Shown here in pieces: positions 5,920-12,025 of a stretch of 64,000 bases of DNA. Under the pieces are notes generated by a model. The model did no database searches and had not been told where the DNA came from. It saw only the letters and a list, made by a program, of their open reading frames with translations. How positions within the stretch are numbered: position 1 is the first letter of the stretch; every line of letters begins with the position of its first letter. This DNA comes from Aggregatilineales bacterium (GTDB taxonomy: Bacteria; Chloroflexota; Anaerolineae; Aggregatilineales; Ch27), in NCBI GenBank assembly GCA_029976025.1, contig JARKNX010000180.1, positions 1-64,000 on the forward strand. The letters are read 5' to 3'. The translations under genes were made by a program, and so were the position numbers.

Positions 5920-6732
5920 ATGGAAGACCAGCAACGCACCAGCAAACCTGAGGATCGGGAGCAACTTGTTGTCAGCATATCTCGCTCGGCGATCTACGTG
6001 ATCGTCACTGCTGTTGTATTCTTCATCGTCGGTTATGGGATAGCCTGGTTCTCTTTCAACGCCGCTATTTCGGCCCGGGAACAGGGTCTCGAAGAGACAG
6101 TTCGCACGGCTGTCAGCGCGGCATTTGCTGATCTCGATCTGCCCCGGGAAGCTGCGCAGGTAGCCGCTCCTCAGGCTCCGGCAGCCCCGCAGATTGTCAA
6201 TGTGAGCGTGGGCAATAGCCCGTCCCGCGGGCCGGAAGACGCGCCGATCACTATCGTGGAGTTCTCCGACTTCCGTTGTGGCTTCTGTGGCAGGTTCCAG
6301 GCTCAGACTTTGCAGCCGCTCCTGGACCAGTACGGGGATCAGATTCGCTTCGTCTATCGGAATTTCCCGGTTGTCGGAGGGGAGCGCGCTGCTGAGGCGG
6401 CTCAGTGTGTCTTTGCCCAGAGCGAAGAGGCGTTCTGGGCCTATCACGACCTTCTTTTCGCCAATCAGCAGACGACGGGCAGTGACGATACGTTGATTGC
6501 ACTGGCCGGGCAGGTCGAAGGGCTTGACGTTGACGCGTTTCAGGAATGTCTGTCCGCGGATACTTACGTCGCGGCGGTTCAGGCCGATTTTGCTGATGGG
6601 ATTAGCTACGGCGTGAGCGGCACCCCCACCTTCTTCATTAACGGGCGCTTGCTGGTTGGCGCTCAGCCGCTGACGGCTTTTCAGGCGATAATTAACGAAG
6701 CGCTGGCAGCGCAAAATGAGCAGCCTAGCTAA
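5920..6732 (+). CDS. Membrane-anchored DsbA-like thiol:disulfide oxidoreductase
   Basis: A 270-residue protein with one N-terminal transmembrane helix (about 22-46), a short coiled linker, and a thioredoxin-fold DsbA/Thioredoxin_4 domain from about residue 95. The active site is Cys120-Gly-Phe-Cys123 in 'FSDFRCGFCGRF'. The cis-proline loop is 'SGTPTFF' (Pro236). Two further cysteines, Cys163 and Cys210, match the second pair seen in BdbD-like proteins. It should oxidise or isomerise disulfides on the outer face of the cytoplasmic membrane. The VKOR homologue about 1 kb downstream on the other strand is the natural re-oxidant. AGGAG at 5906 supports the start. Family assignment is firm; oxidase versus reductase direction is inferred. 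Confidence 0.88.
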   Translation: MEDQQRTSKPEDREQLVVSISRSAIYVIVTAVVFFIVGYGIAWFSFNAAISAREQGLEETVRTAVSAAFADLDLPREAAQVAAPQAPAAPQIVNVSVGNSPSRGPEDAPITIVEFSDFRCGFCGRFQAQTLQPLLDQYGDQIRFVYRNFPVVGGERAAEAAQCVFAQSEEAFWAYHDLLFANQQTTGSDDTLIALAGQVEGLDVDAFQECLSADTYVAAVQADFADGISYGVSGTPTFFINGRLLVGAQPLTAFQAIINEALAAQNEQPS

Positions 6733-7674: not shown

Positions 7675-8184
7675 TCAGAACGCCGGACGGCGCATAAATT
7701 GAACGATCTGGATCGTGGCGATAATGAAAATGATCGTCATCAGAATGGCCGAGATCAGGCACCAGGTACAGACAGTGTACATAATAAATAACTCGGTATA
7801 CGTCAGGTATAGCGAGAACAGGAAGCCAAACAGGGCCATGCCGAATACCAGAAAAGTGCCATATTCCCGCAGGAAGGAGGCGCGATTCTCCAGGACCCAG
7901 ACGGCCAGAATGGCAAGGTAACCGCCAAAACCGAGAAGGGCAACCGGGAAGCCGAGTATCCTGGCGTACACACTGGATTGCACGAAGCCGCAGTCCACGG
8001 CAATTGCTCCCTCGACGCCCGGTTCGTCGCCAGTGCTCCCGGGACATGTCGTATTGCTCCCGGTAAGCTCTGCCCAACTCATGTACCCGGCGACGAGTAG
8101 TCCCAGGATGGCGAGGACGATCCCGACAATGCGCAGCCATTTATTCCCAACGCTGCTGTTATTTGTTTTTGACGCAGGTGCCAT
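7675..8184 (-). CDS. Vitamin K epoxide reductase (VKOR) family membrane protein
   Basis: A 169-residue polytopic membrane protein with about four hydrophobic helices (about 17-37, 78-97, 107-127, 131-160). It has the four conserved VKOR cysteines: the loop pair Cys47 and Cys65, and the quinone-proximal Cys139-Thr-Trp-Cys142 in 'CTWCLISA'. Bacterial VKORs replace DsbB: they pass electrons from DsbA-like proteins to quinone and so drive disulfide formation. The DsbA-like gene at 5920 fits as the partner. No fused thioredoxin domain is present, so a separate partner is needed. A TATAAT lies on this strand at 8239-8244. The start codon is preceded by GAGGGAT. Confidence 0.9.
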   Translation of the reverse strand: MAPASKTNNSSVGNKWLRIVGIVLAILGLLVAGYMSWAELTGSNTTCPGSTGDEPGVEGAIAVDCGFVQSSVYARILGFPVALLGFGGYLAILAVWVLENRASFLREYGTFLVFGMALFGFLFSLYLTYTELFIMYTVCTWCLISAILMTIIFIIATIQIVQFMRRPAF

Positions 8185-8340: not shown

Positions 8341-10659
8341 ATGGAACTACAGCAATTCCTTAATTCCTTACCGGCGCTTTCCCCCGCTGACACTCTGCTC
8401 ATCGAGAAGGCCTATGAGCGGGCGGAGCAGGCGCATCGCGGTCAGAAGCGCAAGTCGGGCGAACCGTTCTTCGCCCACTGTCTGGCGGTGGCGCAATTGC
8501 TGGCCGAATTTCGGCTGGACGCGGCTACTATTGCGGCTGGTCTGCTGCATGATGCCGTCGAAGACACCAAGCTGACTCTGGAAGATATTGAGCGCGAATT
8601 TGGCATTGAGGTGGCGCGCCTGGTGGATGGCGTGACCAAGATGGAGCATATCCCCACCCAGAGATCTGTCAAAGATCATGATAAGGATGCCGAATTCCTG
8701 CGTAAGACATTTCTGGCCATGGATGATGATGTGCGGATCGTGCTAATCAAGCTGGCTGATCGGCTGCACAACATGCGCACACTGGGCTATCTGCCTTCCG
8801 AGCGCCAGGTTGAGGTGGCGCGGGAGACGATGGACATCTTCGCTCCACTGGCGAATCGGCTGGGTATCTGGCGCATGAAATGGGAGCTTGAGGATCTTGC
8901 GTTTCGCTACATCAATCCAGTCGCCTATCACGATATTGCGGCCCGGCTGGAAGATCGCCGGGTCGAACGGGAGGCGGAGGTCCAGCGGATCGCTGATCGG
9001 CTCGTTCACCGCCTTGAGGAAGAGGGCATCAAGGCCAAGGTGACAGGCCGCCCCAAGCATATTTACAGCATTTACCGGAAGATGCTGCGCAAGGAAGTCC
9101 CTTACGAAGAAGTTTATGATGTCCGGGCGCTGCGCGTGCTGGTTGATGATGTGCCAACCTGTTACCGGGTGCTGGGGATCGTACATGCGTTGTGGCGACC
9201 GATGCAGGGCGAGTTTGACGATTATATTGCTGGCCCCAAAGACAACTTTTACCAGAGCCTGCATACTACGGTCTATGACGAGCTGGGCAAGCCTCTCGAA
9301 GTTCAGATTCGCACCCTTGAGATGCATAATAACGCTGAATACGGCATTGCGGCTCACTGGCGCTATAAGGAAGGCGCTCAGCGGGATGATGAGGCGTTCG
9401 AGAAACGAATCGGATATTTCCGCCGTTTGATGGCCTTCACGGAGGAAGAGGACGCCCAGGATCAGAGCGCCGCCGAATTTGTGGATGCGCTTAAGTCGGA
9501 GGTATTCCAGGACCGCGTCTATGCCTTCACCCCTAAAGGGGATGTCGTTGATCTGCCGATGGGGGCTACGCCGATCGATTTCGCTTATTACATCCACACG
9601 GAGATTGGCAACCGCTGCCGGGGCGCCAAGATCAACGGCAAACTGGTTGGCCTGGATTACAAGCTCCGGACCGGCGATCGCGTGGAGATTCTGACGGCCA
9701 ACCGCGGCGGCCCCAGCCTGGATTGGCTCAGCCCCTACCTGGGCTACACCTCGACAACGCGCGCGCGCTCTAAGATACGCCAGTGGTTCCGGAAACAGAA
9801 CCGCGAGAACAATATCGCGGCTGGCCGTGTGGCCCTGGATCGCGAGCTCAAACGCCTTGGGCGCGCTGATATGTCTTACGATGAGGTCGGCGGGCTGTTC
9901 TCCATGAAGGCCGACGATTTCCTGGCGACAATCGGGCACGGCGAGATCAACAGCGGGCAGATCGCCTCGCGCATCCTGGAGGCGGAGCGGCGCGTCGGGC
10001 GCGAGACGCTTGACCGCGTCCTGCGCCAGATTGGGCGAGAAGACCTGACCTTCGAGCAGGTGGCGACTCTGTTTGTCTTCAGCCGGTCTGACGATTTCCT
10101 CTCCGCGATCGGCTCTGGCGATATCACTGCGGAGCAGATTCGCGATCGTATCCGGACGGCGGATGCCTGGCAGGATGAGGCAGCTGAGATCGCCTCTGTT
10201 GATGCCTCCGATGGCGTCGAGATTGCCGGAGGAGGGAACGGCCTGCTTATCAATCTGGCGCGCTGCTGCAACCCGACGCCGGGCGACTCGATTGTGGGCT
10301 ATATCACCCGGGGGCGGGGCATCACTGTTCATCGCAGCGACTGCAAGAATATCCTGAACATAGACGAGCCTAACCGGCTGCTCCCGGTGAACTGGCGCCG
10401 GACGGGGGTCGCCCATAAGTCGTATCCGGTGCCGATCATGATTGTCGCTTACGACCGCGAAGGTTTGATGCGCGATATTGGTGGTGTGATTGCAGACGAA
10501 CAAATCAGCATGTCCAATGTCAGCATCACAACGAAACAGAAGGTTGCCACTTTCCTGGTCACCATGGAGATCGTCGATGTTGCGCAGCTCACACGGGTGC
10601 TGAATAAGATCGAGAAGCTCCCCAGCGTGGTCGAGGTATACCGACGCACGGCTGTCTGA
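8341..10659 (+). CDS. rel: Rel: (p)ppGpp synthetase/hydrolase with EXDD-type synthetase motif
   Basis: A 772-residue long RelA/SpoT homologue. Order: HD hydrolase domain (His46, His70-Asp71, Glu74-Asp75 in 'HDAVEDT', and 'LADRLHNMRTL'), synthetase (about 230-340), TGS (about 395-455), helical region, zinc-finger/CC region ('NLARCCNPTPGDSIVG') and C-terminal ACT (about 695-772). It makes and degrades the stringent-response alarmone in the cytoplasm, probably in response to stalled ribosomes. Two oddities: the synthetase loop reads Glu291-Phe-Asp-Asp294, the acidic EXDD form of monofunctional RelA, although the hydrolase site is intact; and the helical region contains two similar copies of about 55 residues (about 499-553 and 554-608). 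There is no clear ribosome-binding site at the ATG. Confidence 0.95.
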   Translation: MELQQFLNSLPALSPADTLLIEKAYERAEQAHRGQKRKSGEPFFAHCLAVAQLLAEFRLDAATIAAGLLHDAVEDTKLTLEDIEREFGIEVARLVDGVTKMEHIPTQRSVKDHDKDAEFLRKTFLAMDDDVRIVLIKLADRLHNMRTLGYLPSERQVEVARETMDIFAPLANRLGIWRMKWELEDLAFRYINPVAYHDIAARLEDRRVEREAEVQRIADRLVHRLEEEGIKAKVTGRPKHIYSIYRKMLRKEVPYEEVYDVRALRVLVDDVPTCYRVLGIVHALWRPMQGEFDDYIAGPKDNFYQSLHTTVYDELGKPLEVQIRTLEMHNNAEYGIAAHWRYKEGAQRDDEAFEKRIGYFRRLMAFTEEEDAQDQSAAEFVDALKSEVFQDRVYAFTPKGDVVDLPMGATPIDFAYYIHTEIGNRCRGAKINGKLVGLDYKLRTGDRVEILTANRGGPSLDWLSPYLGYTSTTRARSKIRQWFRKQNRENNIAAGRVALDRELKRLGRADMSYDEVGGLFSMKADDFLATIGHGEINSGQIASRILEAERRVGRETLDRVLRQIGREDLTFEQVATLFVFSRSDDFLSAIGSGDITAEQIRDRIRTADAWQDEAAEIASVDASDGVEIAGGGNGLLINLARCCNPTPGDSIVGYITRGRGITVHRSDCKNILNIDEPNRLLPVNWRRTGVAHKSYPVPIMIVAYDREGLMRDIGGVIADEQISMSNVSITTKQKVATFLVTMEIVDVAQLTRVLNKIEKLPSVVEVYRRTAV

Positions 10660-10729: not shown

Positions 10730-12025
10730 ATGAAGAAAATCCGAAGGCGTACTGCGTTTTTGGAGATAGCGGGCGCGCTTGTGCTGATTATGCTTGCGGG
10801 CGCTTCGCTCACTGCTGCCGGGCCTTCTGGCGCGGCTCCGGGGCGGACTCCTACCCCCGCGTCACCCACGTCGGCTGTTTCAAATGATTCAAGAGCACAG
10901 GAGCCTCTTGAATCGCTGGCAGCAATTGTCAATGCTGAGAATCGGGAATGGGAGAACGTGACCTTCTGGGAGGGAGGAGTGCTCGGCGATTCTGCGCTGG
11001 CGGTGCTGCGTATCGCCCCGGAACCCGGTGAGCGCTTCCCCGACTTCGATATGGAGCTGCTGGATGGCAGCGTATTTCATTTGGCGGACAGTGAGGGGCC
11101 TGTGCTGCTCAATTTCTGGGCGTCCTGGTGCGGGCCGTGCCGGCTTGAGCTGCCCTATCTGATAGAAATGGCTGCCGATGTGCAGGCGCCATTCAGCATA
11201 GTGCTGGCGAATGTCTGGGACGAAACGGAAAGCTATCGCCAGTTTGCCAGGGCTGAATTTCCGGAGACTCTGCCGTCCGGCCGTCTGGAGGATGGGCAGG
11301 CAGCTGAGTTCGGCTTTCGGGGTATCCCGATCAGCGTTTTACTGAACGCGGAGTTGACAATACAGGCCGTCCACGTGGGCAACATCACGCCAGGAGTCGT
11401 GGATTTCTTCTACAACCTGGCTGCCCGGGGGGCGCAGTTACCGCCCGAATTCGTTGATCTTCCGGCAACACAACTGCCGATGCCTGCGGAGGCGTTGCTT
11501 ACAGAAGTCGAGCAGGCTAATCGAGCGACTAATTCCCAGACGTTCTGGAGAGGCGGGCTTATCGGCGAGCCAGGGGGGCCAGAGGTAGCCCTGCAGGCAG
11601 GCGAAAAGCTGCCCGGTTTCGGCCTGATGACACAACGTGGCGAGCCATTCCGCCTGGACCTGGCAGGCGGACCTGTCCTGCTCAATTTCTGGGCGTCATG
11701 GTGCGGCCCGTGCGCAGAGGAGTTTCCGCTCCTGGTTGAGGCGAGTGCTAACTCTAATCTGCCTTTCGGCATAGTCTACGTGAATGTATGGGATGACGAG
11801 TATTCTGCGGAGAGGTTTCTGGCTGAATACCCGCCTGAACTACTGGCCGTGATCGACCGCGCCGGCCAAATCCCGCCTCTTTACCACCTGGAATTCATCC
11901 CCGTCTCGGTTCTGATTGATGGCGAAGGGGTTATCGTGCTGATTCAGAGCGGCCCCGTCAATACTGCCGTTCTGGAATTCGCAGCGGCGCTCATCCGCGA
12001 GGCTCAGCCTGTTTCTGCGCCATGA
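10730..12025 (+). CDS. Exported protein with two tandem TlpA/ResA-like thioredoxin domains
   Basis: A 431-residue protein with an N-terminal signal/anchor (about 10-30) and a Pro/Thr/Ser linker. Two complete thioredoxin-like domains follow, at about 98-225 and 288-425. Both keep WCGPC (Cys134/137 and Cys325/328) within the same phrase 'GPVLLNFWASWCGPC', and both have a cis-proline loop ('GIPISVLL' and 'FIPVSVLID'). Each domain is preceded by a similar segment ('TFWEGGVLGD' and 'TFWRGGLIGE'), so the duplicated unit is about 190 residues. TlpA/ResA proteins reduce disulfides outside the membrane, often for cytochrome c maturation or copper-centre assembly; no such genes are nearby. It could work with or against the DsbA/VKOR pair upstream. 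No strong ribosome-binding site is seen. Confidence 0.87.
   Translation: MKKIRRRTAFLEIAGALVLIMLAGASLTAAGPSGAAPGRTPTPASPTSAVSNDSRAQEPLESLAAIVNAENREWENVTFWEGGVLGDSALAVLRIAPEPGERFPDFDMELLDGSVFHLADSEGPVLLNFWASWCGPCRLELPYLIEMAADVQAPFSIVLANVWDETESYRQFARAEFPETLPSGRLEDGQAAEFGFRGIPISVLLNAELTIQAVHVGNITPGVVDFFYNLAARGAQLPPEFVDLPATQLPMPAEALLTEVEQANRATNSQTFWRGGLIGEPGGPEVALQAGEKLPGFGLMTQRGEPFRLDLAGGPVLLNFWASWCGPCAEEFPLLVEASANSNLPFGIVYVNVWDDEYSAERFLAEYPPELLAVIDRAGQIPPLYHLEFIPVSVLIDGEGVIVLIQSGPVNTAVLEFAAALIREAQPVSAP

Follow-up and report, generated by a model that had tools for sequence, protein, structure and literature searches.

A Chloroflexota Rel with an EXDD synthetase loop and an intact hydrolase site, and its bearing on the origin of RelA

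Introduction

The stringent response was founded on the pair RelA and SpoT, which is a standard example of how subfunctionalisation follows a gene duplication. The stretch of DNA analysed here (the window, 64,000 nucleotides from an Aggregatilineales bacterium of the Chloroflexota) encodes a long RSH that carries the acidic loop EFDD, a motif of RelA, next to the complete set of hydrolase ligands of a bifunctional Rel. This raises the question of whether the combination is an oddity of one protein, and what it says about the origin of RelA.

Our best explanation, to which we assign a probability of roughly three in four, is that the window protein is the single bifunctional Rel of Anaerolineae-type Chloroflexota and that RelA descends from this EXDD Rel lineage. 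It rests on the sequence, the distribution of the motif, trees, a shared insertion and intermediate proteins, from which we infer the catalytic behaviour, the substrate preference and the direction of transfer. The state seen in the window is real and, for Chloroflexota, ordinary; its value is that it brings to light the likely ancestor of RelA.

Domain architecture and genome context of the window Rel

The following features were annotated, all on the plus strand.

8341-10659, +: rel, a long RSH of 772 amino acids; open frame with HD, synthetase, TGS, doubled helical domain, zinc-finger region and ACT
8410-8871, +: HD hydrolase domain (HD_4), residues 24-177; domain match
8476-8478, +: hydrolase ligand His46; from the sequence
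8548-8565, +: HDxxED hydrolase motif, His70-Asp75; from the sequence
8758-8772, +: Asp140...Asn144 (DRLHN), hydrolase ligand and pocket; from the sequence
9046-9375, +: ppGpp synthetase domain (RelA_SpoT), residues 236-345; domain match
9211-9222, +: EFDD at the RXKD/EXDD position, residues 291-294; from the sequence and phmmer alignments
9517-9696, +: TGS domain, residues 393-452; domain match
9733-9744, +: 4-residue insertion, about residues 465-468; from the alignment, common to the RelA examined
9805-9993, +: first copy of the alpha-helical (AH) domain, residues about 489-551; domain match, self-comparison and AlphaFold2
9994-10176, +: second copy of the alpha-helical (AH) domain, residues about 552-612; 45% identity with the first, specific to the family
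10417-10644, +: ACT domain, residues 693-768; domain match

The window Rel has strong matches to HD_4, RelA_SpoT, TGS, RelA_AH_RIS and ACT, in the order known from Rel[HS]. Since the frame is open and the domain matches are strong, the EFDD motif is not due to chance. PF04607 and PF13328 each have one match in the genome (4.0 Mb, completeness 91.8%), both in the window rel; neither a second HD_4 or RelA_SpoT match nor a SpoT-type partner was found in this genome. As the sole RSH found in a genome that is about 92% complete, the window protein is most likely an ordinary bifunctional Rel. With both families confined to one gene, the cell would have no recognised route of ppGpp removal if the hydrolase were dead.

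Judged by eye from their translations, the neighbours of rel are a DsbA-like thioredoxin-fold protein (5920-6732, +), a VKOR-like membrane protein (7675-8184, -) and a protein with two TlpA-like domains (10730-12025, +).

The EFDD loop in the synthetase site

The initial annotation placed EFDD at residues 291-294, in the RXKD position. The placement is borne out: phmmer sets EFDD on GRFKDY of the solved Rel chains 6yxa and 8fr8 and on DEFDDY of solved RelA chains, and the loop falls in the same place against E. coli K-12 RelA and SpoT, which were fetched by accession. EFDD thus occupies the RXKD/EXDD position. The residues that follow agree as well, with D293-Y295-K300-N302-Y304-H308 of the window Rel fitting one for one the spacing K297-Y299-K304-N306-Y308-H312 reported for RelSeq (PMC8801413). 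The synthetase residues Asp260 and Glu320 and the pocket residues K300, N302, Y304 and H308 are the same in all 26 proteins aligned.

In RelSeq, Lys297 is one of the residues reported to bind pppGpp (PMC13299517), and EFDD would put an Asp in place of the lysine that matches this contact to bound pppGpp. Replacement of the Lys297 equivalent most likely shifts the acceptor preference (towards GDP) and the Mg2+ response, and would leave the hydrolase alone. Effects of EXDD versus RXKD on Mg2+ and on GDP/GTP use are known from the work of Sajish and colleagues, as cited in PMC3153485 and PMC8801413. The RelA of Francisella tularensis, with an EXSD loop, is reported to be GTP-specific (PMC4708007), which shows that the loop does not strictly dictate the choice of substrate. 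If EXDD acts as reported for RelA, the metal dependence or balance between synthesis and hydrolysis that had been predicted as unusual for the window Rel would be the norm in Chloroflexota.

We also considered a charge swap in which Lys251 of the catalytic loop is coupled to Asp293. On the tree, 24 changes at position 251 stand against 4 of the motif, with too few independent contrasts, and Lys or Arg is also found there in E. coli SpoT and in most proteobacterial RXKD proteins. The idea was dropped.

Loop motif and hydrolase state across phyla

To the initial annotation, RXKD was the normal loop of Rel and SpoT, EXDD marked a dead hydrolase and the mixture in the window predicted an unusual metal dependence or balance of the two activities. 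We counted the combinations in a Chloroflexota sample of 104 fetched loci, about one per genus (genera g4 and g79 excepted); all 151 genomes had a match, and one ORF was counted per locus, the HD-intact one where there were two. xxDD with an intact HD domain is the commonest state (64 of 104), followed by xxKD with an intact HD (28) and other loops (10), and two loci are cut by contig ends. The other loops, all counted with an intact HD, are EFND, GFRD, RIRD and RVRD (two each), EFTD and RLRD (one each); in one of the EFND proteins E-D of the hydrolase ligands is replaced by E-N. The first loop position of the 65 Chloroflexota xxDD proteins is Q in 36, E in 23, S in 3 and A, G and R in one each, so that strict EXDD is a minority inside a larger xxDD class. 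A cultured member, Thermanaerothrix daxensis (L054), has EFDD with an intact HD and one PF04607 match.

Outside the Chloroflexota, xxKD is present in 30/30 long RSH from the phylum of an Actinomycetota MAG, in 30/30 of Bacillota and in 28/28 of Cyanobacteria. The Pseudomonadota-phylum sample (n = 30) is mixed, with 11 xxDD proteins whose HD is lost or partly aligned, 11 intact xxKD proteins, one intact KFRD protein and seven RFKD proteins that have lost the HD. The view of RXKD as the normal loop therefore stands for the Actinomycetota-phylum, Bacillota and Cyanobacteria samples and falls for the Chloroflexota, which mostly combine xxDD with an intact HD; as a consequence RXKD is not defining for Rel[HS]. 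The pairing noticed in the window is real, and it is normal in its phylum. EXDD cannot serve as a mark of a dead hydrolase, as xxDD stands beside an intact site in most of the Chloroflexota loci and EXDD in 8 of the best 30 gammaproteobacterial RelA-type loci, and RXKD with a lost hydrolase exists. Since xxDD with an intact HD and RXKD or RIKD with a lost HD both occur, loop motif and hydrolase status are uncoupled in both directions.

Several loci show further combinations. Seven proteobacterial-phylum RFKD long RSH (L286, L287, L289-L293) have lost their HD ligands, with one match per genome at E 1e-60. In L172-L176 and L180 (Chloroflexota, mostly family f24) an RIKD protein with an intact HD lies in tandem with an RIKD protein with a lost HD. 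Other tandem long-RSH pairs are L351/L352 (G286), L349 (G292) and L047, two of them in the order of the window, with one copy having an intact HD (GFHD or AFDD) and the other EFDD with a decayed HD (HHGEQIN or HHDQYDN); these pairs look like a RelA/SpoT-like split evolving within Chloroflexota. The rare loops GFRD, EFTD and EFND are found inside the Chloroflexota xxDD clade in L115, L131, L137, L139 and L028, with hydrolase ligands that are intact except for one D-to-N in L028.

The motif changes 4 times on a tree of 307 rows and 2 times on one of 104 rows, both built without the motif columns. We read the EFDD loop as a lineage trait of Chloroflexota Rel, in which position 1 is mostly Q or E and the Asp at position 3 is fixed. 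An unlikely account, for which we would still allow some room, is that the protein is an ordinary bifunctional Rel whose loop has drifted neutrally with no functional effect. The variety at position 1 fits such drift; position 3, whose lysine counterpart is the pppGpp contact in RelSeq, very rarely changes and speaks against it.

A shared insertion between TGS and the helical domain

After TGS and ahead of the helical domain, the window Rel has the sequence WLSPYLGY; its counterparts in RXKD proteins include WLN-F. This 4-residue insertion is present in 14/14 RelA and in 27/27 named xxDD proteins with an intact HD, a set of named examples found with six search peptides that included MQGEFDDY and hence biased; that search supplied named examples and tree rows and was kept out of the 104-locus frequencies. 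In the Chloroflexota sample 35 of 62 xxDD ORFs with an intact HD have the insertion, and 27 of 65 xxDD proteins are without it. All 195 KD- or RD-loop proteins from outside the clade, among them SpoT of E. coli, lack it, and the two GFRD proteins inside the clade carry it. Among the best 30 gammaproteobacterial RelA-type loci, the insertion is complete in 29 and shorter by two residues in the remaining one.

The alpha6/alpha7 loop has been discussed as a switch in RelA (PMC8012599). This stretch has 21 residues in most RXKD Rel, 24 in the window Rel, 27 in E. coli RelA and 27-33 in eight RelA with intact ligands described below. Because the stretch is long in 15 of the 28 RXKD proteins of Chloroflexota as well, its length is supporting evidence at best for a kinship of RelA and Chloroflexota Rel.

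Placement of RelA in trees and by similarity

The alignment comprised 317 long-RSH ORFs and was later extended to 380; RelA and SpoT of E. coli K-12 served as named references. A FastTree was built from 307 of the 317 rows (sequences of at least 560 residues) on columns 20-547, from which those of the motif and the HD ligands had been removed. In it 14 RelA, that of E. coli among them, lie within the xxDD clade of Chloroflexota, and SpoT groups with proteobacterial Rel.

IQ-TREE was then run with the LG+C20 mixture model. With C-terminal columns only, RelA groups with the Chloroflexota MAG proteins L050, L052 and L055 at 94, on the Chloroflexota side of a split with support 98; the corresponding supports for synthetase plus C-terminus, from 73 rows (95 minus 22 loci with long branches or near-duplicates), are 97 and 95. 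With more gammaproteobacterial loci, the RelA clade has 98 and RelA with the three MAG proteins 100. A careful search used 65 rows, hand-picked from 104 with each lineage kept, after removal of the HD domain and the motif columns. It supports the RelA clade (100/98), RelA with the same three proteins (100/100), a clade defined by EXDD plus the insertion (100/98), Chloroflexota with RelA (100/99) and SpoT with proteobacterial Rel (99/97). The window Rel lies outside the proteobacterial RelA clade, within the Chloroflexota clade that encloses RelA.

The HD domain alone, from intact proteins, joins gammaproteobacterial RelA to L050/L052/L055 at 99, with deeper nodes without resolution, and the synthetase domain alone puts RelA with Chloroflexota weakly (86.9/37). 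Four-state recoding gives the same nesting (94.9/90 and 99.5/91), and RelA stays inside Chloroflexota when the three MAG proteins are removed (95, 97, 99). Ranked by score against E. coli RelA, the 316 other long RSH begin with four proteobacterial RelA; L050 and L052 (both 46%) and L055 (44%) rank 5th, 6th and 8th, and SpoT ranks 291st (32%). The best Rel of each sampled phylum outscores SpoT. Five phyla were sampled in number, and the true donor could be another phylum.

Constraint tests were made on groups that were named after the first tree had been seen, except for the duplication hypothesis, which comes from the literature. A single Chloroflexota clade that leaves RelA out is rejected (p-AU 0.0057 and 0.0127; 0.036 without the proteobacterial SpoT/Rel rows). 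RelA with SpoT and proteobacterial Rel as one clade is not rejected under C20 (p-AU 0.257 for the C-terminus only, 0.0587 and 0.31; 0.456 for HD only), a constraint that allows SpoT to enter the Chloroflexota together with RelA. Fast constrained searches under LG+F+G4, which can exaggerate rejection, give p-AU 0.0004 for the textbook arrangement in full, with a single Chloroflexota clade and with RelA as the sister of SpoT/Rel, 0.0066 for RelA as sister to SpoT/Rel, which is rejected, and 0.44 for Chloroflexota plus RelA as one clade.

These results bear on the published view that a duplication inside the proteobacteria gave rise to RelA and SpoT as paralogues. Atkinson and colleagues inferred the duplication from the co-distribution of RelA and SpoT, and reported each of the two as monophyletic (83%) and long RSH as little prone to transfer (PMC3153485); the duplication is repeated in later papers (PMC9974481, PMC8012599, PMC6416229). 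The co-distribution and the union of RelA and SpoT that is not rejected under C20 are in its favour. It would require EXDD and the 4-residue insertion to have arisen twice, in RelA and in Chloroflexota, and a monophyletic Chloroflexota without RelA, which is rejected, as is the full textbook constraint; the ranking of SpoT below the best Rel of each sampled phylum adds to this. We therefore hold a duplication to be improbable. Still more improbable is a descent of both RelA and SpoT from a Chloroflexota-type EXDD Rel, a tree that the unrejected union would permit, as SpoT would have had to revert to RXKD and lose the insertion exactly, and the free trees set SpoT and proteobacterial Rel outside the Chloroflexota. 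No derivation of RelA from Chloroflexota was found in the titles and abstract openings of the open-access papers that our searches listed.

RelA-type proteins with intact hydrolase ligands in Gammaproteobacteria

In the class of a gammaproteobacterial MAG, 50 of 56 genomes have a match to E. coli RelA, and we read the best 30 loci. All 30 are xxDD, and eight (L355, L356, L360, L361, L362, L364, L366 and L367) have the intact ligands HHDEDDN together with complete HDxxEDT and KLADR-type motifs. All eight genomes also encode another long RSH, with (K/R/C)FKD and HDVIEDT, that is 51-56% identical to E. coli SpoT. Both genes lie on one near-complete contig in G340 (3,446,950 bases) and in G325 (2,956,257), which makes contamination unlikely there. 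The gene rlmD flanks relA in E. coli, L358 and L365; it was not found within 12-15 kb around the eight hydrolase-intact RelA genes, where gene position thus gives no support.

RelA-type proteins with EXDD and intact ligands imply that EXDD is older than the loss of the hydrolase. In the 65-row tree L360 falls on the E. coli side of RelA and the other seven fall elsewhere, which means that, barring any regain, the hydrolase disappeared on more than one occasion. Over 37 RelA rows the HD is intact in 8 and lost in 29, with 5 changes over the tree, a count that does not separate gain from loss.

Returning to descent from the EXDD Rel lineage, we propose that an EXDD Rel with an intact hydrolase would have entered the beta/gamma-proteobacteria, lived there beside SpoT and lost its hydrolase more than once. 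E. coli RelA is then probably a xenologue and not a paralogue of SpoT: an ancestor of the beta/gamma-proteobacteria would have acquired a Chloroflexota EXDD Rel with a working hydrolase, which survives with intact ligands beside SpoT in several gammaproteobacteria and underwent independent hydrolase losses in several RelA lines. EXDD, the insertion and the longer alpha6/alpha7 loop would be inherited traits and not consequences of hydrolase loss. If RelA was acquired with EXDD in place, comparisons of RelA and SpoT must be redone against the right ancestor, and EXDD no longer holds as a rule by which an enzyme is called monofunctional. The ligand-intact gammaproteobacterial RelA would be living intermediates in which the loss of the hydrolase can be studied directly.

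The hydrolase site of the window Rel

The hydrolase residues that the initial annotation described as kept (H46, H70, D71, E74 and D75) are all present, as are D140 and N144 and the further pocket residues R37, S39, K137, R141 and T147. We compared the pocket in 93 xxDD and 76 xxKD proteins that have all seven ligands intact, a selection that fixes H70, D71, E74 and D75. R37, H46, D140, R141, N144 and T147 are identical in all of them, and K137 is Lys in 92/93 and 76/76, respectively.

The sole departure in the window pocket is F43. The equivalent residue of Acinetobacter SpoT is Y51, reported as essential from Ala substitution (PMC9974481). Phe is about equally common at this position in xxDD (11/93, window included) and in RXKD proteins (10/76), and the nearest relatives, L032 and L033, both have Tyr. 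We examined F43 as a possible cause of hydrolase loss through another missing ligand and judged it not decisive. That the hydrolase is dead for some cause outside the ligands, such as F43, and that the window protein is a functional RelA is very unlikely: the essential Tyr of Acinetobacter SpoT argues for it, and the Tyr of the nearest relatives, the Phe of RXKD Rel and the only HD_4 and RelA_SpoT matches of the genome argue against it.

As a bifunctional enzyme the window Rel probably works like other Rel, with the synthetase moving pyrophosphate from ATP to GDP or GTP on a starved ribosome. Off the ribosome the HD site would hydrolyse (p)ppGpp.

A doubled helical domain and comparison with known systems

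Residues about 489-551 and 552-612 are tandem copies of the helical domain, with 45% identity over 56 residues (E 8e-16). The duplication is present in 4/4 members of the window's family that have a match (the window genome, G278, G280 and G281; G279 is without a match). All the same-order proteins read from beyond this family lack it. Besides the window (9805-10176) the loci are L032, L033, L324, L325 and L326. AlphaFold2 models the same helix pattern twice, with a block pLDDT of 79-91 over residues 491-610; with a pLDDT of 80 and a pTM of 0.51 for the whole model, the placement of the domains is not trustworthy. On the ribosome, the second helical domain would lengthen the link from TGS to the zinc-finger region.

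The window Rel resembles Rel[HS] such as RelSeq and B. subtilis Rel in domain order, HD ligands, synthetase residues and in likely being the sole RSH. It differs from them by EFDD in place of RFKD, by the 4-residue insertion after TGS and by the doubled helical domain. With E. coli RelA[hS] it shares EFDD, the same insertion, the longer alpha6/alpha7 stretch and its tree position, whereas RelA lacks the HD ligands, which the window Rel keeps, and coexists with SpoT. A further natural loop variant is the EXSD of Francisella tularensis RelA (PMC4708007). L050, L052 and L055 are like the window Rel in EFDD, intact HD and insertion; unlike it they have a single helical domain, and they are the nearest kin of RelA (100/100).
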